From Kushneria sinocarnis (GTDB lineage Bacteria; Pseudomonadota; Gammaproteobacteria; Pseudomonadales; Halomonadaceae): a stretch of DNA of 64,000 nt. A program made the position numbers and the translations under genes. The notes below the pieces were generated by a model. That model had not been told where the DNA came from, did no database searches, and worked only from the letters and a program-made list of their open reading frames with translations. The stretch covers positions 62,001 to 126,000 of the forward strand of contig NZ_RBIN01000008.1 of assembly GCF_003633775.1 (NCBI RefSeq), written 5' to 3'. Below, in pieces: positions 37,930 to 49,422 of the stretch (within the stretch, counting starts at the first letter, position 1; each line of letters begins with the position of its first letter).

Positions 37930-38111
37930 CCTTCGATCGGTTCGATCAATAATCCGGAAGCCTATTGGACATTGGTCTTACTAGAGCAATCTCACACTCA
38001 CTTGAAACCGTTTATTTACAGCTATATACGGAAAAACCATCCATCATGCGGCGATAGTGGCATTGCCTGTAATGATCGAATCAATCATTTTTATATTGTT
38101 CCGATCAATAT
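37930..38111 (+). promoter_or_regulatory. AT-rich control region with GATC-type inverted repeats before kdgT
   Basis: The ~308-base gap before kdgT is much richer in AT than the surrounding DNA. It holds an inverted repeat AATGAT-N7-ATCATT (38071-38089), the 9-mer CCGATCAAT (38101-38109) and GATCGGTTCGATCAAT (37935-37950). The segment TGATCGAATCAATCATTTT (38073-38091) recurs with two changes before the kinase gene at 43.7 kb. I read these as binding sites for a shared regulator. No clear sigma-70 promoter was identified. Confidence 0.5.
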
Positions 38112-38161: not shown

Positions 38162-39289
38162 ATGCGCCTGCTAGCCAATGTCGAGAAGGTCCCTGGCGGC
38201 CTGATGGTAATACCACTGCTGCTGGGTGCCACACTCAATACAGTGGACCAGCAGCACCTCCCCTGGGTGACATCATCTCTGCAGTGGCTCGGCGCCGGTC
38301 AGACCGGTGACGGGCACTATGAGTTTCTGCGCATTGGCGGTTTCTCGCAGGAGCTTTTCAAGGATGGTGCGCTGGTATTGATCGCGCTGTTCCTGTTCTG
38401 CTCCGGCAGTCAGATGAATCTGCGAGTAGGGGGCCATGCGCTCAAGAAAGGTGTGCTGCTGGTTGCCGCCAAGTATCTGACCGGTCTGGCAGTCGGGATC
38501 ACCCTGGGATGGCTGTTCGGACCCTTCAATGGTCTGCTGGGACTGTCAACGGTGGCCATCATAGCCGCCATGACCAACGGCAATGGAGGTATGTATGCTG
38601 CATTGACCAGTCAGTACGGAAACCGTTCTGATACTGGCGCCGTTGCCATCCTGTCACTCAACGATGGCCCCTTCTTCACCCTGATGTCACTGGGTCTGCT
38701 GGGCTCCCAGTTTCCAGTCATCGCTTTCATTGCCGTACTGCTGCCGATCGCACTGGGCATGCTACTGGGCAATCTCGACGAAGATATTCGCAACTTCCTC
38801 AAGCCCGGCGAGATTCTACCGGTTCCCTTTTTCGCCTTTGCGCTTGGCGCCAACATGAACCTGGCGGCCTTCTTCAACCCGGAGGTCGTGGGCGCCGGAT
38901 TGCTGCTTGGGGTAATGACCACGGTACTGACCGGGGGGATCGGCATCCTGGTCTTTCGGCTGTTCCGTGAACGCAGCGTAATCGCACCAATTTCGGAGGC
39001 AACTACTGCCGGCAATGCTGCTGGTACACCGGCCGCCATCGCAGCGGCTGCTTCGGTAGCTGCCGGTTCCGGCATGATGAGCGCTGCAGAGGCGCAGCAG
39101 TATCAGGATCTGGTGTCCATTGCGACGTCGCAGATTTCCATTTCGACCCTGACCACTGCGCTGCTGGGGCCAGCTGCCGTCATGCTGGTGGATCGCTGGC
39201 AGCGCCGCCGCGGGATCGATGGTACCGTCGAGCGCGATGCCACAAACGCTTCGGAGGAGGCGCCCCGCCCCACCGCGGACAGCGCCTGA
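38162..39289 (+). CDS. kdgT: 2-keto-3-deoxygluconate permease-family transporter
   Basis: Inner-membrane sugar-acid:H+ symporter of 375 residues and about ten helices. Signatures include K-V-P-G-G-L-M-V-I-P-L-L-L-G near residue 9, A-A-M-T-N-G-N-G-G-M-Y near 135 and a Gly/Ala-rich segment near 280-310. KdgT homologues import 2-keto-3-deoxygluconate; in this context the real substrate may be another aldonic acid. A strong AGGAGG precedes the ATG. It is the first gene of the run with larA, larE, larB and larC, so it probably supplies the LarA substrate. Confidence 0.9.
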   Translation: MRLLANVEKVPGGLMVIPLLLGATLNTVDQQHLPWVTSSLQWLGAGQTGDGHYEFLRIGGFSQELFKDGALVLIALFLFCSGSQMNLRVGGHALKKGVLLVAAKYLTGLAVGITLGWLFGPFNGLLGLSTVAIIAAMTNGNGGMYAALTSQYGNRSDTGAVAILSLNDGPFFTLMSLGLLGSQFPVIAFIAVLLPIALGMLLGNLDEDIRNFLKPGEILPVPFFAFALGANMNLAAFFNPEVVGAGLLLGVMTTVLTGGIGILVFRLFRERSVIAPISEATTAGNAAGTPAAIAAAASVAAGSGMMSAAEAQQYQDLVSIATSQISISTLTTALLGPAAVMLVDRWQRRRGIDGTVERDATNASEEAPRPTADSA

Positions 39290-39368
39290 ACGGCCCGGCG
39301 TCAATCATGCAGGCTATGCTGAACGAAGCGGCCACCGAGCCGGCCGCTTCAATCCGGCAGGAGACAAC

Positions 39369-40631
39369 ATGCAGACATCACTGCTCTACGGTCGGGGCGA
39401 ACTCCCCCTCGACCTGCCCGAGGACACCTTCGTGGTCGAGCCACCGGTCCAGCACGCCCTCGCAGCGCCCGAGGACGCCATTCGCGCCGCGCTCGACGCG
39501 CCCATCGACACGCCAGCGCTGAAGGAGATGGTGCGGGCCGAGGATCGGGTCGCCATCGTCATCAGCGACATCACCCGCCCGACGCCCAATCATCTGCTGG
39601 TGCCACTGCTGATCGACACGCTCGCTCATGTCCCGCATGACCATTTCGTCATCATCAATGGCACCGGCACCCACCGCGATCAGACCGAAGACGAGCTGCG
39701 CGGCATGCTGGGCGACTGGGTGGTCGATCACATCGAGATCATCAACAACCACTGCGACAATTACGACGAGCTGATCAACGTCGGCGACAACAGCTTCGGC
39801 TGCCCCTCCTGGCTCAATCGCCGCTATGTCGAGGCCGACTTTCGCATCGTCACCGGCTTCATCGAGCCGCACTTCTTTGCCGGGTTCTCCGGCGGGCCCA
39901 AGGGGATCATGCCGGGCATTGCCGGGCTCGAGACCATCATGACCTTCCATAACGCCCGCATGATCGGCGATCCGCGCTCGACCTGGGGCAACATGGCGGA
40001 CAATCCGCTGCAGGCGATGACCCGCGAGATCAATGCGCTCTGCCCACCGCACTTCATGCTCAATGTCACCCTCAATCGCGACAAGGCGATCACGAAGGTC
40101 TTCGCCGGCGACATGACCGAGGCCCACCGCCGCGGCTGTGAACATGAACTCGAACACGCCATGGTGCGCTGTGACGAACGCTTCGATGTCGTGATCACCG
40201 GCAACTCCGGCTATCCGCTCGATCAGAACCTCTATCAGGCGGTCAAGGGCATGAGCGCGGCGCACAAGATCGTGCGCGAGGGCGGCACCATCATCATGGC
40301 GGCAGAGTGCTCGGATGGCATTCCCGAGCACGGCAAGTTCGCCGAAATTCTGACCATGGCCGATACCCCGCAGGCCCTGCTCGAGATGATCGAGGACCCG
40401 GAGTTTGCCATGCTCGATCAGTGGCAGGTCCAGAAGCAGGCGGTCATCCAGAGCTTTGCCAACGTGATGCTCTACTCCACCCTGAGCGACGACCATACGC
40501 GCCGGGCCCTGCTGGAGCCGACGCACGACATCGAAGCCACCCTCGCCACGCTGCAAAAGCGTTATGGTAACGGCATGCGAGTCGCGGTCATGCCGCTGGG
40601 GCCGCTGACCGTTCCCTATGTGGATGAATGA
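39369..40631 (+). CDS. larA: LarA-family nickel-pincer-dependent hydroxyacid racemase/epimerase
   Basis: Member of the DUF2088/LarA superfamily (420 aa), which inverts the alpha-hydroxy carbon by hydride transfer on a nickel-pincer nucleotide. All functional positions are seen: Asp67 and Arg70 (D-I-T-R-P-T-P), His102 (G-T-G-T-H-R), His168 and cofactor-binding Lys178 (P-H-F-F-A-G-F-S-G-G-P-K), His194 (nickel ligand), Gln290 and Lys293. The founding enzyme is lactate racemase; relatives act on malate, hydroxyglutarate or gluconate. Being between a KdgT permease and the pincer-cofactor genes, with an acid-sugar kinase locus next door, suggests a sugar-acid 2-epimerase rather than lactate racemase. 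Confidence 0.88.
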   Translation: MQTSLLYGRGELPLDLPEDTFVVEPPVQHALAAPEDAIRAALDAPIDTPALKEMVRAEDRVAIVISDITRPTPNHLLVPLLIDTLAHVPHDHFVIINGTGTHRDQTEDELRGMLGDWVVDHIEIINNHCDNYDELINVGDNSFGCPSWLNRRYVEADFRIVTGFIEPHFFAGFSGGPKGIMPGIAGLETIMTFHNARMIGDPRSTWGNMADNPLQAMTREINALCPPHFMLNVTLNRDKAITKVFAGDMTEAHRRGCEHELEHAMVRCDERFDVVITGNSGYPLDQNLYQAVKGMSAAHKIVREGGTIIMAAECSDGIPEHGKFAEILTMADTPQALLEMIEDPEFAMLDQWQVQKQAVIQSFANVMLYSTLSDDHTRRALLEPTHDIEATLATLQKRYGNGMRVAVMPLGPLTVPYVDE

Positions 40632-40664
40632 TCACCGGATGCGCACAATCCCGGAAGGATTTTC

Positions 40665-41591
40665 ATGAGCGATGTGAGCTTTAGCAATCGGATCGAACAT
40701 GTCTCGGTCGACCCACCCGCTGGCCCGAGCGGACCACAGCTGACCCATGACGTCAGCGAGGGCACGGCGCTGGAGGCCAGGCTCGAGCAGCTGCGCGCAG
40801 TATTGCGTGAAATGGGCGATGTCGTGGTGGCCTTCTCCGGCGGTGTCGACAGCACCTTTCTACTGGCCGTGGCGCTGGACACGCTGGGCAGGGAACATGT
40901 ACTGGCGGTAACTGCCGACTCCGAATCCTACCCCTATGAGGAGCTCGATGCTGCCCGCGAGCTGGCGCGGCAGCTGAACGCACCACATCGGGTGATCCGG
41001 ACCTCGGAGCTCGACATCCCGGGCTACGCCGACAATGACGCCAGTCGCTGCTACTACTGCAAGTCCGGGCTGTTCACTCATCTGGCACCGGTCATGGTCG
41101 AAGCCGGCCTGCACAATATCGTGTTCGGCCTGATTGCCGACGATATCGGCGAGCATCGCCCCGGCACCATCGCCGCGCGTGAACACGGCGTGCGCGGGCC
41201 GCTGCACGAGGTCGGGCTCTACAAGGCCGAGATTCGCGAACTCTCGCAGGCCATGGGCCTGCCCACCTGGAACAAGCCCTCGCTGGCCTGTCTCTCTTCC
41301 CGGGTGGCCTATGGCGAACGGATCACGCTGGAAAAGCTCGAGCGTATCGCCGAAGCCGAGCGCCGGGTACGTGCCCTGGGCATCGGGCAGCTGCGGGTAC
41401 GCCACCATGGCGAACTCGCCCGTATCGAAGTCGCACCCGCCGACATGCCCCGCCTGCTCGAACATCATGACCGGCTGGTCAGCGAGCTCACCGAACTGGG
41501 TTATCACTGGGTCACGCTCGATCTTGCCGGCTATCGCAGTGGCAGCATGACCCGCATGCTCGAGCCCGACACACGGACCACCCATGAGTGA
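40665..41591 (+). CDS. larE: LarE, sulfur transferase for nickel-pincer cofactor synthesis
   Basis: ATP-dependent PP-loop enzyme (308 aa) that adenylylates and adds sulfur to the dicarboxylated pyridinium nucleotide made by LarB. The ATP motif S-G-G-V-D-S is at 58-63. The sulfur-donor Cys is Cys209 in [10 protein letters not shown]-x-x-C pair (Cys129, Cys132) is also present, giving the three-cysteine set described for [4Fe-4S]-using LarE homologues, in contrast to the single sacrificial Cys of Lactiplantibacillus. It carries ~30 extra residues at the N-terminus. It overlaps larB by 8 bases. Confidence 0.92.
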
Positions 41592-42324
41592 ACACAGCGA
41601 CAACGAGCGCATCGCCGATCTCGGCTTTGCCCGCGTCGACCATGACCGCGAGGCACGCAACGGTGTCCCTGAAGTCATCTTCGGCGAAGGCAAGCGGGCC
41701 GAACAGATCAGCGCCATCGTGACCTGCCTGCGCGAGCGTCACCGGCGCGCGCTGGTTACCCGGCTCGATGCCGAGCGCGCCGAATGCGTGCTGCGTGATC
41801 ATCCCGGGGGCACCTATGACCCTGCCAGCCGGCTGCTGCGCTGGGGAGAGGCCCCCGGGCGCCTGCCGGGTCGGGTCGCCGTGATCTGCGCCGGCACCTC
41901 CGATCTGCCGGTCGCCGAGGAAGCGGCCCAGACGCTGGAGTGGCTGGGTGTGGAAGTGGCCCGGCTCAGTGACGTCGGCGTGGCCGGGCTCGACCGGCTG
42001 CTCGCCCATCGCACCGCGATCGCCCGCGCCGACGTGCTGATCGTGGTCGCCGGCATGGAAGGCGCCCTGCCCAGTGTGGTCACCGGGCTGGTACGCAATC
42101 CGGTGATTGCCGTCCCCACCTCGGTGGGTTACGGCGCCAGCCTGCAGGGCGTCACCGCCCTGCTCGGCATGCTCTCGGCCTGTGCCACCGGCATGAGCGT
42201 GGTCAACATCGACAACGGCTTTGGCGCCGCCTGGCAGGCCGCCAGCATTCTCGGCCTGGTGGCACACGGCGTGAACCCGGCACCGGTCGACTTCTCCCAC
42301 AACGCGGACGCCCCGGGGTCATGA
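41584..42324 (+). CDS. larB: LarB, nicotinic acid adenine dinucleotide carboxylase/hydrolase
   Basis: First enzyme of the nickel-pincer pathway: it carboxylates the pyridinium ring of NaAD and splits off AMP. The 246-residue protein has the PurE-like C-terminal domain, with [16 protein letters not shown] near 97 and [10 protein letters not shown] near 178, both typical of LarB. It overlaps larE by 8 bases and larC by 4, so the three are translationally coupled. Confidence 0.95.
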
Positions 42325-43562
42325 ACCGACTGCATATCGACTGTACCTTTGGCATCGCCGGCGACATGCTGCTGGCGGCGCTGATCGATCTGGGCGCCGA
42401 TATCGGGAGCATTCAATGCGACCTGCAGCGCCTGCCGCTGGATGACTTCGAACTGGCCTGCGAACGGGTCGACCGCTGCGGCATCAGCGCCCGACTGCTG
42501 CACATCCAGCCGGGCAATCATGGGCACGAACACGCTCATCATCACGCTCATGCCCATGACCACCCCCACCGCCGCGCCGGCGACATCCTCGCCATGCTCG
42601 CAACCGCCGACCTGCCATCACGGGTACGGCAGCGGGCGCAGGCACTGTTTACCGCCATTGCCGAAGCCGAAGGACGCATCCACGGCATCGACCCGGCCGA
42701 GGTGCACCTGCACGAGGTCGGGGCAATGGATTCGATCATCGACATCCTCGGCGTCTGCCTGGCGCTGGAGCAGCTCGACATCGACATCCTCACGGCCTCC
42801 CCGGTCCCGGTCGGTCATGGCGTGGTCAGTATGGCCCATGGCCGCTTCCCGATTCCGGCGCCGGCCACCCTGGAGCTGCTGCGCCATGTTCCGCTGTCGG
42901 CTTTCGACGCTCCCGGCGAGCTGACCACCCCCACCGGCGCCGCCTTTCTGCAGGTGCTGGTCGGGCAGTTCGGCACACTGCCGGCGGCCACCCCGCTGCG
43001 GATCGGCTATGGCGCCGGCCGTCGCGACTTCGATCACCCCAATGTGCTGCGTGCGGTACTGTTCGAGCAGCAACCCGTCGAGCAACAACCCGCTGCGCCT
43101 GCCCGCGAATCGATCACGGTACTGGAGTGCCAGCTCGATGATGCCACCGGCGAGCAGCTGGGCCATGCGCTGTCACTGCTGCTGGAGGCCGGCGCACTGG
43201 ACGTGTTCCATACACCGGTCACCATGAAGAAGTCCCGCCCCGGCACGCTGGTCACCGTCCTTGCCCGCCCGTCCGATGTCGCAGGACTGGAAGGGCTGCT
43301 GCTGAGACATACCCCCACCTTCGGTGTGCGCCGGCATGAATGTGCACGACTGGCGCTCGAGCGGCATACCGAGACGGTGACCACGCCGCTGGGCGAAGCC
43401 CGGATCAAGATTGGTCTGCTCGATGGCCATGAACTGCACGTCGCCCCCGAATTCGACGACATACATCGCCTCGCGTGTCAGCACAGCCGCTCATTCGAGG
43501 AGGTGAGGAGGCTGATCCTCGAAGCCCGACGGCCCGATTCCCCTCCGGATGCAGACGCATGA
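42321..43562 (+). CDS. larC: LarC, nickel insertion protein of pincer cofactor synthesis
   Basis: CTP-dependent nickel insertase (413 aa) that completes the pincer cofactor. It opens with C-T-F-G-I-A-G-D-M near residue 8 and contains a His-rich tract at about 67-83, a probable nickel-holding segment. E-V-H-L-H-E-V-G-A-M-D-S-I-I-D near 127 and M-K-K-S-R-P-G near 299 are family landmarks. The gene is one uninterrupted frame; in Lactiplantibacillus the same product needs a programmed frameshift between larC1 and larC2. It starts in a 4-base overlap with larB. No nickel transporter gene is nearby. Confidence 0.94.
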   Translation: MNRLHIDCTFGIAGDMLLAALIDLGADIGSIQCDLQRLPLDDFELACERVDRCGISARLLHIQPGNHGHEHAHHHAHAHDHPHRRAGDILAMLATADLPSRVRQRAQALFTAIAEAEGRIHGIDPAEVHLHEVGAMDSIIDILGVCLALEQLDIDILTASPVPVGHGVVSMAHGRFPIPAPATLELLRHVPLSAFDAPGELTTPTGAAFLQVLVGQFGTLPAATPLRIGYGAGRRDFDHPNVLRAVLFEQQPVEQQPAAPARESITVLECQLDDATGEQLGHALSLLLEAGALDVFHTPVTMKKSRPGTLVTVLARPSDVAGLEGLLLRHTPTFGVRRHECARLALERHTETVTTPLGEARIKIGLLDGHELHVAPEFDDIHRLACQHSRSFEEVRRLILEARRPDSPPDADA

Positions 43563-43572
43563 ACCAGGACAC

Positions 43573-43725
43573 AAATGATCAAAACAATCAAAAATGACCG
43601 ATCCCAAAATATCCTGAAAAGCTCCGGTTAACAAAGGTTCCGAAGTATTTCCAGGCGATCACCCTGCGATGGTCTACTTGCCAATATTGATCAATTCAAT
43701 CATTTTATGATCAATCATTGATCGG
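43573..43725 (+). promoter_or_regulatory. AT-rich control region with palindromic operator before the acid-sugar kinase gene
   Basis: A perfect 15-bp palindrome GATCAATCATTGATC (43709-43723) ends 11 bases before the kinase start. Upstream lie ATTGATCAAT (43686-43695) and TGATCAATTCAATCATTTT (43688-43706), which matches the pre-kdgT segment. CATTGATCGG (43716-43725) contains the reverse of the CCGATCAAT seen there. A further GATC cluster is at 43576-43593. The placement next to the start codon fits repression. Confidence 0.55.
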
Positions 43726-43734
43726 ACACTTGCC

Positions 43735-45108
43735 ATGTCGACCGCTACTCCTGCGCCCCGGAGCAACCGAACTGCTTCGCCGCCGTCCACCACTTCACTG
43801 CTGATCCTGGCCGACGACCTGACCGGCACGGCAGACAGCGCAGTCGGCTGTGCCAGCCGGGGACTGCGCACCCTGATCTCGCTCTCGCCCGATGCGGGGG
43901 CAGCGGCCGACGTGGTCGCCATCGATACCGACAGCCGCCGCCTGTCACCCGATGAAGCGGCTCAGCGCTGTGTCGACGGTTGGCAGCAGTGGCAGGGAGG
44001 CTATCGCCATCTGTTCAAGAAGCTCGACTCCACCCTGCGCGGCAATGTGGCCGCTGAAATTGCCGCACTGGTACCGCTGGCCGGTATGGCGATTGTCGCT
44101 CCGGCCTTCCCCGCCACCGGGCGCACCACACGCAACGGTCATCAGTGGCTGCACGATCAGCCGGTGGAAGAGAGTGAAATATGGCGCAACGAAGGGCTCG
44201 CCGGGCGCGCCGATCTGGTCGCCATGCTGCAGGCCGTCGGGCTGAGAACGGTTCATCTTGATCTGGAGCAGCTGCGTCACACCATTCAAGAGCTCGCCCG
44301 ACAGCTGCAGGCGTTCCGGCAGCAGGGCTATCAGGCCGTGATCTGCGATGGTGAAAATGATGGTGATCTGGCCCGGCTCGCGAGCGCTTCAGCTGCCCTG
44401 ACGGGGGTCTTCCATGTAGGATCGGCCGGACTGGGCCGGCACCTGCCGGAAGCATTCGGTCTGATGGGCAGCGCCGAGCCCCCCACGCAACCCCTGCCGG
44501 ATCGCCAGCGGCCTGACACGCATCGGCCGATGCTGAGCGTCGTTGGCAGCATGACCGAGGTTTCCCTGCAGCAGGCGCAACAGCTGAAGCAACGGGCCAG
44601 CAGCCGGCTGCGCGTTTTCGAACTCACCCCCGATCAGCTGCGCCGCACACCTGATGACGCCATCCGCAACGCGACGGGGCACGCCCTGGGCGAGGCCCTC
44701 GCACAGGGACTCGATGTACTGGTGACCATCGCCTGCAGCAGTGATCGCAATCCGGCCGAGGGGCCACTGCTGGCGAGGCATCTCGGCGAGCTGCTGGCGC
44801 CAACGCTTTCCCGGGTCGGCACACTCTTCGTAACCGGCGGAGAGACCGCCCGCGCCCTGCTGACCAGCGCCGGGATCGACACGCTGCAGTTGATCGAGGA
44901 GCCCGATACCGGCATGGCCGGGCTGCTGACCGAACTCGAGGGCGCGCCGCTGCGCGTCATCACCAAGGCCGGCGGCTTCGGTGATGAAACCGCACTGGCC
45001 CGACTCTGGCAGCGCTATCGCGGCAGCGCGGCTGCTTCCACCCCGGACGAACATGGCTTCAGTCAGCAGGGACCCGGCACGATGACACGCAACGAGGAAG
45101 AGACATGA
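43735..45108 (+). CDS. Four-carbon acid-sugar kinase (DUF1537; DtnK/OtnK-like)
   Basis: ATP-dependent kinase of 457 residues. The DUF1537 N-terminal substrate domain contains L-A-D-D-L-T-G-T-A-D (25-34) and K-K-L-D-S-T-L-R-G-N (95-104). The C-terminal nucleotide-binding domain contains F-V-T-G-G-E-T-A-R near 370 and K-A-G-G-F-G-D-E near 417. Characterised members phosphorylate D-threonate, D-erythronate or 2-oxo-tetronate at O4. The ATGA overlap with a pdxA2-type gene points to the D-threonate kinase (DtnK) branch. It is the first gene of a second operon facing away from larC. Confidence 0.9.
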   Translation: MSTATPAPRSNRTASPPSTTSLLILADDLTGTADSAVGCASRGLRTLISLSPDAGAAADVVAIDTDSRRLSPDEAAQRCVDGWQQWQGGYRHLFKKLDSTLRGNVAAEIAALVPLAGMAIVAPAFPATGRTTRNGHQWLHDQPVEESEIWRNEGLAGRADLVAMLQAVGLRTVHLDLEQLRHTIQELARQLQAFRQQGYQAVICDGENDGDLARLASASAALTGVFHVGSAGLGRHLPEAFGLMGSAEPPTQPLPDRQRPDTHRPMLSVVGSMTEVSLQQAQQLKQRASSRLRVFELTPDQLRRTPDDAIRNATGHALGEALAQGLDVLVTIACSSDRNPAEGPLLARHLGELLAPTLSRVGTLFVTGGETARALLTSAGIDTLQLIEEPDTGMAGLLTELEGAPLRVITKAGGFGDETALARLWQRYRGSAAASTPDEHGFSQQGPGTMTRNEEET

Positions 45109-46112
45109 GCGAGCGACCCGTAGTCGGCATTACCATGGGCGACGCCGCCGGCGTTGGCCCGGAAATCATTATCAAGAGCCTCGCACACGCCTCGGTTCAC
45201 GATCTCTGCCGTCCGCTGGTGATCGGCGATGCCGGCCGTCTCGGAGAGGCCGCGCATCGGCTGGAGAGCCCGCTGGAGGTACGAGCCATTACCCGGCCCG
45301 ATGAGGCCCGGTTCGACCCGGGCACCGTCGACTGCATCGATCTCGGTCTGATCCCCGCCGATCTGGCCTGGGGGGAAGTCTCGCCCATCGCCGGTGACGC
45401 CGCCTATCAGTATATTGCCCGTACCGTCGAGCTGACCCGGGCCGGCGAGCTCGATGCCATCTGCACCGCGCCGCTCAACAAGGCGGCACTGCATGCCGGC
45501 GGGCATATCTTTCCGGGACATACCGAACTGCTGGCTCACCTGACCGGCATCGATGAAGTCTCGATGATGCTGGTCACCCCGAAGATGAAGGTGATTCACG
45601 TCACCACTCACATGGGCCTGCTCGATGCCATCGCTCGCATCGAACCCGGCCTGGTCCAGCGCACCATCGAGCGTGCCCATGCCACCCTGACGCGCGCCGG
45701 CATCGAGCGTCCACGCATCGCGGTGTGCGGCATCAATCCGCATGCCGGGGAGAACGGCCTGTTCGGCCATGGCGAAGAGGAAGAGAAGATCGTTCCCGCC
45801 ATCAATATCCTGCGTGCCCGCGGCTGGGACGTCGAAGGGCCTCTGCCGGCGGACACTCTCTTCTTCCGCGCCGGGCGCGGTGACTTCGACTGCGTGGTCG
45901 CCATGTATCACGACCAGGGACATGGCCCGGTCAAGGTCATGGGGCTTGAAGCCGGCGTCAACGTCACCGTCGGCCTGCCGGTCATTCGTACCTCGGTCGA
46001 CCACGGCACCGCCTTTGATATCGCAGGCCAGGGCCTTGCCGATGAACGCAGCATGCTCGAAGCGCTGCGCCAGGCCGTGGAACTGGCCACCCGGTATGCC
46101 GATACGGCCTGA
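45105..46112 (+). CDS. PdxA2-type 4-phospho-sugar-acid dehydrogenase (PdxA family)
   Basis: NAD-dependent oxidative decarboxylase, 335 aa, close to PdxA in sequence: G-I-T-M-G-D-A-A-G-V-G-P-E at the start, T-A-P-L-N-K-A-A-L near 123, F-P-G-H-T-E near 135 (metal His), I-N-P-H-A-G-E-N-G near 207, and M-Y-H-D-Q-G-H-G-P-V-K near 266. Classic PdxA serves vitamin B6 synthesis. PdxA2 beside a DUF1537 kinase instead converts D-threonate or D-erythronate 4-phosphate to dihydroxyacetone phosphate and CO2. The 4-base overlap with the kinase favours the catabolic role. Confidence 0.88.
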   Translation: MSERPVVGITMGDAAGVGPEIIIKSLAHASVHDLCRPLVIGDAGRLGEAAHRLESPLEVRAITRPDEARFDPGTVDCIDLGLIPADLAWGEVSPIAGDAAYQYIARTVELTRAGELDAICTAPLNKAALHAGGHIFPGHTELLAHLTGIDEVSMMLVTPKMKVIHVTTHMGLLDAIARIEPGLVQRTIERAHATLTRAGIERPRIAVCGINPHAGENGLFGHGEEEEKIVPAINILRARGWDVEGPLPADTLFFRAGRGDFDCVVAMYHDQGHGPVKVMGLEAGVNVTVGLPVIRTSVDHGTAFDIAGQGLADERSMLEALRQAVELATRYADTA

Positions 46113-46160
46113 GCCCCGCCCGAACCGCATGTCCGACACCACACGAAAGGAGCTGCCATC

Positions 46161-47066
46161 ATGGAAAGAATCGGATTCATCGGTCTGGGCCTGATGGGTG
46201 AAGGCATGGCCCGCAATCTGCTCGGTGCCGGCTATCCGCTGACCGTCATGGGTCACCGCAACCGCCGTCCCGTCGAGGAACTCACCGCCCTGGGCGCCGA
46301 GGAAGTCAGCTCCCCGGCCGAAATGGCCGCCCGATGCGATATCGTCTTTCTCTGCCTGCCCGGCGCCCCGCAGATCGAGCGGATCGTGACCGGTGATGAC
46401 GGTCTTCAGACCGGGGCACGTCAGGCCGGCGGACGCGATCTGATCATCGTGGACTGCTCGACCTCACAGCCCACCCTGACCCGAGAGCTCGCCCGATCGC
46501 TGGCCGAGGACGGCATTACCTTCATCGATGCGCCGCTGGGGGGCATTCCGGCTCAGGCCCAGAGCGGGGAACTGCAGGCCATCGTGGGCGCCGACGACGC
46601 CACGCTCGCTCGGCTCGAACCGGTTATCTCGACTTGGGCGGCACGCATCATTCATGTCGGGCCTACCGGGGCCGGCCATACCATGAAGCTGCTCAACAAC
46701 TTCCTTGCCATGGGCTATGGCGCCATCTTCTCCGAAGCACTCGCCATTGGCGCCCGGGCGGGTATCACCCCCCAGGTGTTCGATAGCGTGATCCGGGGGT
46801 CACGCATGGACAGCGGCTTCTACCGCACCTTCTTTCAGTACGTGCTCGAACGCGATCGCAACGCCCATCCCTTTGCGCTGACCAACGCGCACAAGGACAC
46901 CCGCTATCTGGTCGAGCTGGCGGAAAGCCTGCAGATGGAGGCCGGTGTTGCCCGGGCAGTCCGCGATCTCTATGCCCAGGCCGAAGCCGATGGGGAAGGC
47001 GAGCGCTATGTGCCGGAACTTTCCGATATTGTCGCTGCTCGCCACGGCATTTCCCTGGGTCAGTGA
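46161..47066 (+). CDS. Beta-hydroxyacid dehydrogenase (3-hydroxyisobutyrate/LtnD-type family)
   Basis: NAD(P)-dependent dehydrogenase (301 aa) with the Rossmann motif G-L-G-L-M-G-E-G-M-A-R near residue 8, D-C-S-T-S-Q-P near 95, the substrate loop D-A-P-L-G-G near 119 and the catalytic Lys in G-A-G-H-T-M-K-L-L-N-N near 176. Relatives include tartronate semialdehyde reductase, 3-hydroxyisobutyrate dehydrogenase and L-threonate/D-erythronate C2-dehydrogenases. In this operon a sugar-acid dehydrogenase role is likely. AAGGAG precedes the ATG. It lies 48 bases after the pdxA-family gene. Confidence 0.87.
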   Translation: MERIGFIGLGLMGEGMARNLLGAGYPLTVMGHRNRRPVEELTALGAEEVSSPAEMAARCDIVFLCLPGAPQIERIVTGDDGLQTGARQAGGRDLIIVDCSTSQPTLTRELARSLAEDGITFIDAPLGGIPAQAQSGELQAIVGADDATLARLEPVISTWAARIIHVGPTGAGHTMKLLNNFLAMGYGAIFSEALAIGARAGITPQVFDSVIRGSRMDSGFYRTFFQYVLERDRNAHPFALTNAHKDTRYLVELAESLQMEAGVARAVRDLYAQAEADGEGERYVPELSDIVAARHGISLGQ

Positions 47067-47132
47067 TCGACACACTGCAGCGAACAACATGCCACAATCG
47101 GTCACGACTCGGGGTTGTTGCGGGAGAAGAAG

Positions 47133-47909
47133 ATGAAGGTTGCCCGACGCCGTCAGGCCATGCTCGATGCCGTGCTTGCCGGCATGACCGAAGTGGAAGC
47201 CCTGTGTGCCCACTTCGGGGTCTCGGAAGCCACGGTGCGACGCGATCTGGGCGCGCTGGCCGAACAGGGGCTGGTCGTGCGTACCTACGGGGGCGCCACG
47301 GCGCGCCTCGGCCCTCGCGAACCCGAACTCACCCTGGAGCAGCGTCGCGAGCGTCAGGGGGACATCAAGGCCCGACTGGCCCAGCTGGCGCTGGAGCAGG
47401 TGCATGATGGCGAAACCCTGCTGCTCGATGGCGGCACCACCACCGCGGCACTGGCCGACTGCCTGCGGGCCAGACGCGGCCTGCATGTGCTGACCAACAA
47501 CCTCACTGCACTCGCCGCGCTCGGTGACCTGCCGGAAGGACACGTCACCGTGCTCGGCGGCGATCTGCGCGTGCCGAGCATGACCACCCATGGCCGTCTG
47601 GCCCACGCTGCGCTGGGGCGGGTCAGCGTGGATCGGGTATTCATGAGCGCCGATGGCGTCGTGGCCGGGATGGGGCTGTGTGAAGCCAGTCCCGAGCAGG
47701 CCTGGCTGAAGGAGGCGATGATCCAGCGCGCAGCCAGGCTCCACGTCATGGCCGATGCCACCAAGCTCGGGCGGGCCAGCCAGCAGCACTGGACCCCGCT
47801 GCCGCGGCGCTGGAGCCTGATTACCGATGCCGATGATGACACCCTGCTGGACACCTTTCGTGCCCAGGGGGCCGAGATCTGCAACGGCCTGCCCGCCACC
47901 GGGCCCTGA
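47133..47909 (+). CDS. DeoR/GlpR-family transcriptional regulator
   Basis: Repressor-type regulator of 258 residues. The N-terminal winged helix has A-L-C-A-H-F-G-V-S-E-A-T-V-R-R-D-L near residue 25 and the family R-T-Y-G-G-A wing near 55. The C-terminal sugar-phosphate-sensing domain has L-D-G-G-T-T-T near 105. DeoR proteins usually sense a phosphorylated intermediate of the operon they sit in. Here that would be a sugar-acid phosphate, and the GATC palindromes at 43.7 and 38.1 kb are candidate targets. The ATG at 47133 follows GGGAG by 7-8 bases. Confidence 0.9.
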   Translation: MKVARRRQAMLDAVLAGMTEVEALCAHFGVSEATVRRDLGALAEQGLVVRTYGGATARLGPREPELTLEQRRERQGDIKARLAQLALEQVHDGETLLLDGGTTTAALADCLRARRGLHVLTNNLTALAALGDLPEGHVTVLGGDLRVPSMTTHGRLAHAALGRVSVDRVFMSADGVVAGMGLCEASPEQAWLKEAMIQRAARLHVMADATKLGRASQQHWTPLPRRWSLITDADDDTLLDTFRAQGAEICNGLPATGP

Positions 47910-48039
47910 AGTACCGTGATTTGCCGCCGTGCTCCCCGGTCATGGCGAGCCAAGCCTAACCTGGGTAATGGCCAACGCCCGCCCGGGCTGGGACAGTAGT
48001 GGTCATGAATCGACAATGACCGTCACGGAGGCCGGTTTC

Positions 48040-48552
48040 ATGGATGAACGGGAACTCAATCGTGTCGTGGAGTTCATGACCGAGCAGCAGCTGGTCATGG
48101 CCACGGCGGAATCCTGCACGGCAGGTCTGATCGTCTCGGAGCTGGTCAGCATACCGGGCACCGGCCAGCTGCTGGATTCCGGGCTGGTGGTGTACTCGCC
48201 CGAGGCCAAGCAGCGCTATCTGGATATCGACGATAGCCTCTTCGAGCAGTACTCGCTGACCAGCGAGGTGATCGCCCGCGCCATGGCCCAGGGCGCCCTG
48301 AACAATACCCATGCGACCGTCACGCTGGCCAATACCGGCGTGGCCGGCCCGGCGGCGGGAGATGATGGTACGCCGGTGGGTACGGTCTGCTTCGCCTGGG
48401 GCTTTCGCTTCGATTCGGGCGATATCGTGCTCTCCGAAACCCGCCGTTTCGACGGCGATCGCAATGAGGTGCGCATGGCAGCAGCCCACTACGCCCTCAA
48501 TCGCATCAGCGACTACCATCGGCAGGCCAGTCAGTCCTCGCAGGCCTCCTGA
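48040..48552 (+). CDS. pncC: CinA-family nicotinamide-nucleotide amidohydrolase
   Basis: Deamidates NMN to nicotinate mononucleotide in the NAD salvage cycle. The 170-residue single-domain protein corresponds to the CinA C-terminal domain. It contains M-A-T-A-E-S-C-T-A-G with the catalytic Ser near residue 23 and A-N-T-G-V-A-G-P near 97. GGAG lies about 9 bases before the ATG. It lies 39 bases before nadE, so the two form an NAD-metabolism pair. Confidence 0.9.
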   Translation: MDERELNRVVEFMTEQQLVMATAESCTAGLIVSELVSIPGTGQLLDSGLVVYSPEAKQRYLDIDDSLFEQYSLTSEVIARAMAQGALNNTHATVTLANTGVAGPAAGDDGTPVGTVCFAWGFRFDSGDIVLSETRRFDGDRNEVRMAAAHYALNRISDYHRQASQSSQAS

Positions 48553-48591
48553 GTCGCCGTTACATTTCTGCAGGAAGGGAGTCATCAGGCA

Positions 48592-49422
48592 ATGAGCACC
48601 GCGACCACCTCGCAGCAATCGCAAATCATCGAAGCCCTCGGCGTCGAAGGCAGCTTCGAAGCCGAGCAGGCCATCGAGCAGCGCATCGAGTTCCTCTGCC
48701 ACCAGCTCCGGGACAATGGCCTGAGTGCCCTGGTACTGGGCATCAGCGGCGGTCTGGACTCCTCCACGGCCGGGCGTCTGTGTCAGCTTGCCGTGGAGCG
48801 CCTGCGCGAGCAGAGCTACCCGGCCACCTTTTACGCACTGCGCCTGCCCTATGGCGAACAGGCCGATGAAAGCGACGCCCGACACGCGCTGCAATTCATT
48901 CGTCCCGACCGGGAACTGGGCATCAATGTAAAGCCTGCCAGCGACGCCCAGCTCGATACGCTGAAACAGGGGGGGCTCGAGTTCCGTGACGCGTATCACG
49001 AGGATTTCGTGCTCGGCAACATCAAGGCGCGTCAGCGCATGATCGCCCAGTACGCCGTAGCCGGCACCCACGACGGTCTGGTGGTGGGTACCGATCATCC
49101 CGCCGAGGCGGTGATGGGCTTTTTCACCAAGTTCGGTGACGGCGCCTGCGATATCACCCCGCTGGGCGGACTCAACAAGCGCCGCATCCGCGCCGTGGCC
49201 GATGCCCTGGGGGCCGACGAGTCGATCTCCGGCAAGACCCCGACCGCCGATCTGGAGTCACTGACGCCGCAGCGCTCCGACGAGGACGCCTTCGGTATCA
49301 GCTACGATGACATCGACGACTATCTGGAAGGCCGGTCGGTCAGCGAGCATGTCGAGCGCACCATTGTCGAGGCGTATCGCAAGACGGCACACAAGCGCGA
49401 ACTGCCTCGCGCCCCGGAATGA
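48592..49422 (+). CDS. nadE: Ammonia-dependent NAD+ synthase
   Basis: Final step of NAD synthesis: amidation of NaAD with ATP and ammonia. At 276 residues it matches E. coli NadE (275) and lacks the glutaminase domain of longer forms. The PP-loop is S-G-G-L-D-S-S near residue 52, with G-T-D-H-P-A-E near 165 and P-T-A-D-L-E near 218. NaAD is also the LarB substrate, so the pincer pathway upstream draws on the same pool. It is probably co-transcribed with pncC. Confidence 0.96.
   Translation: MSTATTSQQSQIIEALGVEGSFEAEQAIEQRIEFLCHQLRDNGLSALVLGISGGLDSSTAGRLCQLAVERLREQSYPATFYALRLPYGEQADESDARHALQFIRPDRELGINVKPASDAQLDTLKQGGLEFRDAYHEDFVLGNIKARQRMIAQYAVAGTHDGLVVGTDHPAEAVMGFFTKFGDGACDITPLGGLNKRRIRAVADALGADESISGKTPTADLESLTPQRSDEDAFGISYDDIDDYLEGRSVSEHVERTIVEAYRKTAHKRELPRAPE

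Follow-up and report, generated by a model that had tools for sequence, protein, structure and literature searches.

What does a nickel-pincer 2-hydroxyacid racemase do among genes of sugar-acid catabolism? We addressed this question for a locus of Kushneria sinocarnis that lies in a 64,000-nucleotide stretch of contig NZ_RBIN01000008.1 (positions 62,001 to 126,000, hereafter the window; 65% GC). The host genome is a Halomonadaceae genome of 3.5 Mb, whose nearest named relatives in our survey were Kushneria indalinina and Salinicola species. Nine genes, all open frames on the plus strand, make up the locus: kdgT for a sugar-acid permease, larA, the cofactor genes larE, larB and larC, a DUF1537 kinase gene, a pdxA2-type dehydrogenase gene, a GarR-type beta-hydroxyacid dehydrogenase gene and a deoR-type regulator gene (Table 1). 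Family searches confirmed all nine, in the order and at the coordinates given in a preliminary description of this DNA, which had proposed that the nickel enzyme inverts C2 of a tetronate. Our own answer is broader, and we hold it to be about an even call: LarA would racemize or epimerize short 2,3-dihydroxy acids at C2, glycerate being the main substrate and D-erythronate/D-threonate plausibly additional ones in a DUF1537-PdxA route that the DeoR regulator would wire to it.

LarA carries the domains PF09861 and PF21113 and is the sole PF09861 match in the host genome. It passed the lactate-racemase equivalog model NF033504 (527.8 bits, cut-off 460), stayed below two malate racemase models (362.1 bits for NF052593 and 310.6 bits for the second; cut-offs 500 and 462) and reached 25.9 bits with the hexonate epimerase model, against a cut-off of 500. 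The catalytic and cofactor residues, already noted as complete in the preliminary description, were all retained at ten positions aligned to L. plantarum LarA (D72, R75, H108, H174, K184, H200, Y294, Q295, K298 and D356). For comparison we used the best 80 of 176 stretches encoding a LarA relative in genome contigs (some species repeated), i.e. 9 loci from Salinicola/Kushneria (84-86% identity) and 71 others (65-70%), which are Bacillota where our tree names them. His108/His174, Arg75, Lys184, His200 and Lys298 (L. plantarum numbering) were present in the window LarA and at the 80 loci, and pocket positions 175, 176, 358 and 359 were identical throughout, reading F, F, W and Q.

At these four specificity positions lactate racemases have F, F, W and E/Q, and gluconate epimerases (GntE) usually E, V, A and H (PMC11770544). 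The two phenylalanines of L. plantarum LarA are described as making its pocket smaller than that with the Leu-Met of the Isosphaera pallida enzyme, which also has Gln (PMC11851776). For another member of the lactate-racemase group, LarAH43, a preference for glycerate was attributed to Q359; its kcat/KM was ∼1.1e5 per M per s for glycerate, 8.3e4 for lactate and ∼1.7e2 for 4-deoxy-D-threonate/erythronate (PMC11770544). Judged by scores and residues, the window LarA belongs to the lactate-racemase group and has what is predicted to be a small pocket. The preliminary description had named clustering with lactate or malate racemases as a finding that would speak against its proposal; the enzyme did fall below the malate models, but it did not stand outside the lactate-racemase group. 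Malate racemase itself was rejected as a candidate, on the NF052593 score and on position 359, where Q stands and K would be expected. The pocket residues would favour a small acid (glycerate or lactate) over a tetronate, a slow tetronate reaction staying possible.

Gene context points in the same direction. Neighbours were scored within ≤ 10 kb on each side of larA, and among the 71 non-halomonad loci glycerate kinase and a CdaR-type regulator were each found at 61, KdgT at 59 and larE at 42; at 54 loci the glycerate kinase gene stands immediately upstream of kdgT on the same strand. The KdgT of 52 of these 59 loci is 59-78% identical to that of the window, which shares 40-48% identity with the kinase-linked, paralogous and Rhodovastum KdgT proteins compared and 41% with the kinase-linked KdgT of two Burkholderiales plasmids. 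Such a CdaR/glycerate kinase-kdgT-larA operon in Bacillales suggests a glycerate racemase. Plasmids yielded 15 records with LarA matches, five of which were opened: a Rhodovastum plasmid carries kdgT-larA-larC-larE-larB-glycerate kinase (LarA 35% identity) and a Rhizobium plasmid larA-larC-larE-larB-glycerate kinase. Because the enzyme is a member of NF033504, has the F-F-W-Q pocket and has glycerate kinase as its commonest neighbour, glycerate is the best-supported main substrate.

DUF1537 and PdxA were found together at 10 of the 71 non-halomonad loci, all 10 also with glycerate kinase; DUF1537 occurred alone at one and PdxA alone at four (L016, L017, L024 and L057), where a DUF1537 gene lies ∼11 kb from larA. 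All nine halomonad loci had DUF1537, PdxA and the GarR-like dehydrogenase, seven had deoR, and none had glycerate kinase.

Across 275 Halomonadaceae genomes, LarA of the window type was present in 13 and an orthologue of the kinase (E 3.5e-75 or better; next match 7.7e-31) in 29, including all 13 with LarA. In 11 of these 13 genomes, kinase and pdxA lie downstream of the larA cassette and share its orientation; two of the 11 (L002 and L006) have an aldolase gene ahead of the kinase. The other two, G122 and G123, have kdgT-larA-larE-larB-larC-deoR with kinase-pdxA 240 and 254 kb away, and neither the larA region nor the kinase region opened there has the GarR-like dehydrogenase. The linkage is far beyond chance. 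Glycerate kinase, found in 206 of the 275 genomes including all 13 with LarA, cannot discriminate in this family because it is so widespread.

Fourteen of the 16 kinase genomes free of LarA were opened (loci in the range L148-L163). Kinase and PdxA were present at 14 of 14 loci, the dehydrogenase at 13 and a sialidase-like gene at seven, plus one fragment; a DHDPS-type aldolase occurred at 13 of the 14, versus two of the 13 larA-bearing genomes in the loci seen. Two halomonad genomes (G205 and G215; loci L151 and L160) keep larE-larB-larC beside DUF1537-PdxA-dehydrogenase with neither kdgT nor larA there, and G150 holds two kdgT-like fragments, 13 and 35 residues long; these may be remains of the cassette.

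The two parts of the locus have a candidate control element in common. A palindrome, TGATCGAATCGATCA, lies upstream of kdgT and again upstream of the DUF1537 kinase gene; at ≤ 3 mismatches the window gave 10 matches at 7 places (four in the two promoters, three elsewhere), compared with a shuffle mean of 1.79 matches. Counting a site as upstream of a gene at ≤ 2 mismatches within 350 bp, we found one before kdgT in 14 of 14 rows, which represent 13/13 larA-bearing Halomonadaceae genomes (G172 being present twice). A site also precedes the kinase in 11/11 larA-bearing genomes without an aldolase gene ahead of it. These include G122 and G123, whose larA and kinase parts are unlinked yet both carry the operator-like site, and in which deoR directly follows larC. 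Neither larA-bearing genome with the aldolase gene has a site at kinase or aldolase, and among the LarA-free kinase loci nine of 14 have one before aldolase or kinase and five have none. We found no site at ≤ 2 mismatches within 20 kb around the glycerate kinase gene of the host, and no exact match within 8 kb around those of G122 and G123. Our reading is that DeoR controls both the kdgT-larA part and the kinase part, its binding to these sites being predicted.

A reversed control pattern gave 0 matches in 14 genomes. The pattern itself gave 5-18 distinct matches per genome among the matches listed, and most of those opened fell in predicted coding sequence, e.g. inside a gene read as rpoD in three Kushneria-type genomes and inside predicted frames at G172 C23, G175 C25 and G000 C1; one at G172 C12:474582, near the larA locus, is flanked by a transporter-like gene and a second deoR-like gene. 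A regulon extending beyond kdgT and the kinase was rejected, the pattern alone not being specific, and we used it only by its position before kdgT, kinase or aldolase.

Does the tetronate-type kinase also accompany this LarA outside the Halomonadaceae? In 348 genomes from one Bacillales order (that of G647), the LarA clade (E up to 1e-120) was present in 28, DUF1537 in 140 and both in 26, so that DUF1537 occurred in 26/28 larA genomes and in 114/320 others (Fisher 1.9e-9, ancestry ignored). Of the 28 larA genomes, 15 have it no more than 35 kb from larA and 12 no more than 15 kb, with G817, whose match positions were unlisted, counted as not near. Absence of DUF1537 from genomes of the glycerate-kinase type had been considered as a test against tetronates, and the outcome was the opposite: of 45 genomes, drawn from 50 glycerate-kinase-linked larA loci without DUF1537 nearby, 40 have a DUF1537 gene and five gave none. 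Glycerate kinase and DUF1537 are therefore not alternatives in Bacillales. With DUF1537 counted across its subfamilies without sorting, a tetronate-type kinase appears often to accompany this LarA in Bacillales as well. The lone bacillal kinase scored (L035) came closest to the D-threonate kinase model, at 272.6 bits against a cut-off of 450. Together with 11 of 13 Halomonadaceae genomes and the common sites, this co-occurrence bears out the coupling of larA to a D-threonate-type kinase and dehydrogenase that the preliminary description had noted at this one locus, and the linkage proved conserved in Halomonadaceae and recurrent in Bacillales.

In a LarA tree with two characterised sequences only (from PDB alignments), long outgroup branches and LarAH43 not placed, the 13 halomonad rows formed one clade (99/100) that grouped weakly with Staphylococcus rows (92/59), inside an otherwise Bacillales set. 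The DUF1537-linked Bacillales rows were scattered, requiring 9 changes, of which at least 6 were forced. In the PdxA tree, halomonad proteins with or without LarA grouped with three Burkholderiales plasmid proteins and PDB 4jqp (100/100), apart from Bacillales PdxA. Most simply, kdgT and larA would for the most part have moved together and become associated with DUF1537-PdxA on several occasions; an ancestral operon of both parts, followed by losses, is a possible alternative history.

The kinase and PdxA of the window fell below the cut-offs of the models specific for D-threonate. The best DUF1537 model for the kinase was D-threonate kinase NF047819, at 186.8 bits far under its cut-off of 450. 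PdxA passed the general pdxA model TIGR00557 and not the D-threonate-4-phosphate dehydrogenase model (341.5 vs 583); it is presumed catabolic, because another of the three PdxA genes of the host sits in the surA-pdxA-ksgA arrangement. The beta-hydroxyacid dehydrogenase was nearest tartronate semialdehyde reductase (GarR; NF008592, 175.6 bits, below the cut-off of 397). The host genome has a second DUF1537 kinase, accompanied by a KdgT paralogue and a class II aldolase (names read from sequence), in what looks like a 3-oxo-tetronate locus. In the same genome, L105 (G000 C1:232000-250000) holds KdgT, DUF1537, class II aldolase and DeoR genes, read from the open reading frames, and is probably the 3-oxo-tetronate route. 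Glycerate kinase is represented in the host by a single PF02595 gene, ∼35 kb from the larA locus, and a search of this genome for the MOFRL-type enzyme (PF05161) found none.

We propose that KdgT imports a short 2,3-dihydroxy acid and that LarE, LarB and LarC make the nickel-pincer cofactor, with which LarA would invert C2 by reversible hydride transfer via a 2-oxo intermediate, the mechanism being taken from the family. D-glycerate has the 2R and L-glycerate the 2S configuration; D-threonate is 2S,3R and D-erythronate 2R,3R. The main role of this LarA clade would be to turn L-glycerate into D-glycerate for glycerate kinase. DtnK and PdxA2 form the pair of D-threonate catabolism, in which PdxA2 oxidizes C3 with loss of C1 and thereby converts D-threonate 4-phosphate to dihydroxyacetone phosphate. 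In Kushneria and Salinicola, the DeoR-type regulator would wire the cassette into this type of route; LarA most likely interconverts D-erythronate and D-threonate too, and D-threonate would enter the kinase on the way to dihydroxyacetone phosphate, flux being predicted in this direction. Context and pocket back the glycerate role, context and the common sites the tetronate role. The context of the tetronate role includes an association within single genera, with one-sided Fisher values of 0.024 (10 genomes of one genus) and 0.0038 (18 of another), ancestry ignored. In its fullest form, which we offer tentatively and with somewhat less trust than an even chance would merit, one nickel-pincer enzyme serves as a stereochemical funnel for two chain lengths, racemizing glycerate for glycerate kinase and epimerizing D-erythronate to D-threonate for DUF1537-PdxA2 (a nickel-dependent tetronate 2-epimerase activity), and the kdgT-larA cassette has passed between Bacillales and Halomonadaceae.

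Could either substrate suffice by itself? If LarA were strictly a glycerate racemase, its co-regulation with DUF1537-PdxA in halomonads would reflect a mixed sugar-acid diet with no common intermediate. The glycerate kinase linkage in Bacillales and on two alphaproteobacterial plasmids (35% identity), the F-F-W-Q pocket and the five of 45 glycerate-kinase-linked genomes without a DUF1537 match (perhaps incomplete genomes) all agree with this, but the halomonad sites tie larA to the DUF1537 kinase and not to glycerate kinase, halomonad LarA occurs only in genomes holding that kinase (13/13), and Bacillales larA genomes are enriched for DUF1537; we regard it as unlikely, if still to be taken seriously. 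A strict tetronate 2-epimerase, which inverts erythronate/threonate at C2 and so supplies the kinase and PdxA2, as the preliminary description proposed, seems improbable: the same LarA, pocket included, most often has glycerate kinase beside it, the enzyme belongs to the lactate-racemase group, and no DUF1537 match was obtained in five of 45 genomes that carry this LarA. Adjacency, common sites and co-occurrence with the kinase speak for it nonetheless, as do the existence of a KdgT-kinase-dehydrogenase trio that is a working D-threonate route (PMC10079672) and the slow epimerization of 4-deoxy-tetronates by LAR-type enzymes (PMC11770544). The earlier proposal was right on the coupling and probably wrong on the main substrate: a nickel enzyme tied to a tetronate route stands, while pocket and glycerate kinase neighbours argue against tetronate as its principal substrate.

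That an ordinary lactate racemase sits in the locus by chance would fit the NF033504 score, but the genes that recur beside it encode a sugar-acid permease, glycerate kinase and the DUF1537 kinase, and among the nine genes family searches revealed neither a lactate permease nor a lactate dehydrogenase; we give this very little weight. Least credible of all is a hexonate (gluconate/mannonate) 2-epimerase, for which the adjoining KdgT-family permease could be cited: the enzyme is without the E-V-A-H signature of GntE (PMC11770544), scores far too low with the hexonate model (25.9 bits) and has no hexonate gene among the nine. Pocket signature and score likewise disfavour gluconate 2-epimerization as the main alternative, as it had been ranked before; the accompanying remark that mannonate dehydratase is missing holds for the nine genes, the rest of the genome not having been searched for one.

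Several observations weigh against a dual role for LarA with glycerate in the lead. The small F-F pocket should, as predicted, handle a tetronate poorly. The window locus has no glycerate kinase, and the lone PF02595 gene was read as standing among betaine-synthesis genes, without an operator-like site. No glycerate kinase was found nearby in three of the five plasmid LarA loci opened, and seven of the 59 KdgT genes beside this LarA, 38-41% identical to that of the window, belong to a KdgT subtype other than the usual one, which the window has. In 16 of the 29 kinase-bearing Halomonadaceae genomes this LarA is absent, so the DUF1537 route does not need it. Finally, the kinase beside larA in G172 (= L006) matches from residue 121 onward only and may be broken.

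The cofactor set larE-larB-larC is complete, as previously described, with family models matching all three. LarE has three cysteines, C129, C132 and C209, in the CxxC-C pattern described for [4Fe-4S] sulfur insertases (PMC9283937). From this motif we infer a LarE of the [4Fe-4S] type, which would not have to give up a cysteine sulfur of its own for each cofactor molecule made. LarC is a single open frame with LarC1 and LarC2 domains and a His-rich stretch inside residues 61-87. A gene cluster weakly matching the NicO nickel transporter family (24.8 bits, cut-off 27.7) was seen at 16 of the 80 larA loci, including L012, L014, L016, L017, L028, L029, L033, L042 and L048; such a neighbour would fit the nickel need of larA loci.

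Table 1. Features of the kdgT-larA and DUF1537-PdxA locus; positions are those of the window except in the last row, which gives locus coordinates
Feature	Position	Strand	Remarks
Operator-like palindrome CGATCGGTTCGATCA	37934..37948	.	228 bp upstream of kdgT
Operator-like palindrome TGATCGAATCAATCA	38073..38087	.	89 bp upstream of kdgT
kdgT, KdgT-family sugar-acid permease, 375 aa	38162..39289	+	PF03812 282.7 bits
larA, nickel-pincer 2-hydroxyacid racemase/epimerase (predicted), 420 aa	39369..40631	+	NF033504; frame open back to 39219
larE, sulfur insertase	40665..41591	+	TIGR00268 342 bits
larB, cofactor synthesis (function from family)	41584..42324	+	NF033503 282.8 bits
larC, nickel insertion	42321..43562	+	TIGR00299 + NF052512
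Weaker operator-like site TGATCAAAACAATCA, 3 mismatches	43576..43590	.	
Operator-like palindrome TGATCAATTCAATCA	43688..43702	.	47 bp upstream of DUF1537 kinase
DUF1537 four-carbon acid sugar kinase, nearest D-threonate kinase	43735..45108	+	PF07005 + PF17042; NF047819 186.8 bits
pdxA2-type 4-phospho-acid dehydrogenase, presumed catabolic	45105..46112	+	PF04166, TIGR00557; PDB 4jqp 557 bits
Beta-hydroxyacid dehydrogenase, GarR-type	46161..47066	+	PF03446 + PF14833; best PDB match 1vpd
deoR-type regulator	47115..47909	+	PF08220 + PF00455; presumed reader of operator-like sites
Second LarA-like family, members	L169:9263-10537, L170:5713-7035, L017:4438-5682, L176:2-1267		

For larA, the ATG at 39369 is the best start, most of the 80 relatives aligning across residues 1-420. 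The deoR gene probably starts at the ATG at 47133 instead of the TTG at 47115, since its halomonad relatives open with MKVA. A 392-aa open frame runs antisense to larA (39378-40556, minus strand) and recurs at six of the 80 larA loci; codon bias at this GC content most likely accounts for it. Downstream of deoR (47929-49422) are genes read from the open reading frames as a PncC/CinA-type amidohydrolase and an NAD synthetase. LarB uses nicotinic acid adenine dinucleotide (NaAD), which is the substrate of NAD synthetase. The adjacency is probably a coincidence, as an NAD synthetase-like gene also stands downstream of deoR in a LarA-free genome (L148).

A second family of distant LarA-like proteins adjoins PdxA, and has DUF1537 adjacent or close by, in Rubrobacter, the archaeon Halarchaeum and some Bacillales; it also occurs near the kinase module in G172, G205 and G215. 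Its match to PF09861 is weak (one member scored), and it is without the Y-Q-V-K stretch in our alignment. As a candidate epimerase of the LarA-free modules it was rejected, being present at only two of the 14 LarA-free kinase loci (L151 and L160).

The locus is real, conserved and informative. Several enzymes of the LarA superfamily have in-vitro activities without a placed physiological role, and a whole LarA clade here gains a concrete pathway, through glycerate-kinase operons in Bacillales and a predicted regulon in common with D-threonate-type catabolism in Halomonadaceae. If the proposal is true, nickel would serve an entry step into sugar-acid catabolism, and the use of both C2 epimers of an acid with one stereospecific kinase would be explained. 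Glycerate racemization is already in print as an activity (PMC11770544, PMC11851776), and the authors of PMC11770544 state that what the lactate/glycerate activities mean for the cell has yet to be established, leaving the physiological role of LarAH43 open. Our literature search found no tetronate, erythronate or threonate 2-epimerase, nickel-dependent or under other spellings, and, among the papers listed, no link between a glycerate racemase or glycerate kinase and LarA, although the gene-context supplement of PMC7583248, which was outside the search, may give glycerate kinase for one of the groups there. The reaction type is known in vitro and is here set in a likely pathway.

Among the closest known systems is LarAH43 of Enterocloster asparagiformis, which by signature belongs to the same LAR group as the window LarA, has Q at 359 and shows a slight preference for glycerate over lactate in vitro; its F, F and W are known only as the usual pattern of the group (PMC11770544). 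L. plantarum LarA (PDB 5huq) and the I. pallida enzyme LarA/Sar (PDB 9eid) align over nearly the full length and have the catalytic and cofactor residues in common with the window LarA; they differ in having Thr at 359 in the former and Leu-Met in the loop of the latter. GntE2, the D-gluconate 2-epimerase of Thermotoga maritima, uses the same cofactor for the same type of C2 inversion in sugar-acid metabolism, but with other signature residues and on a longer substrate (PMC7583248). On the side of the pathway, D-threonate and D-erythronate kinases are named among DUF1537 proteins (PMC10971088), and E. coli grows on D-threonate with KdgT, D-threonate kinase and 4-phospho-D-threonate dehydrogenase, the KdgT being that of R. 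eutropha (PMC10079672). D-threonate catabolism has kinase and PdxA2-type genes like those of the window, where a GarR-like dehydrogenase and the cassette of the nickel racemase come in addition.

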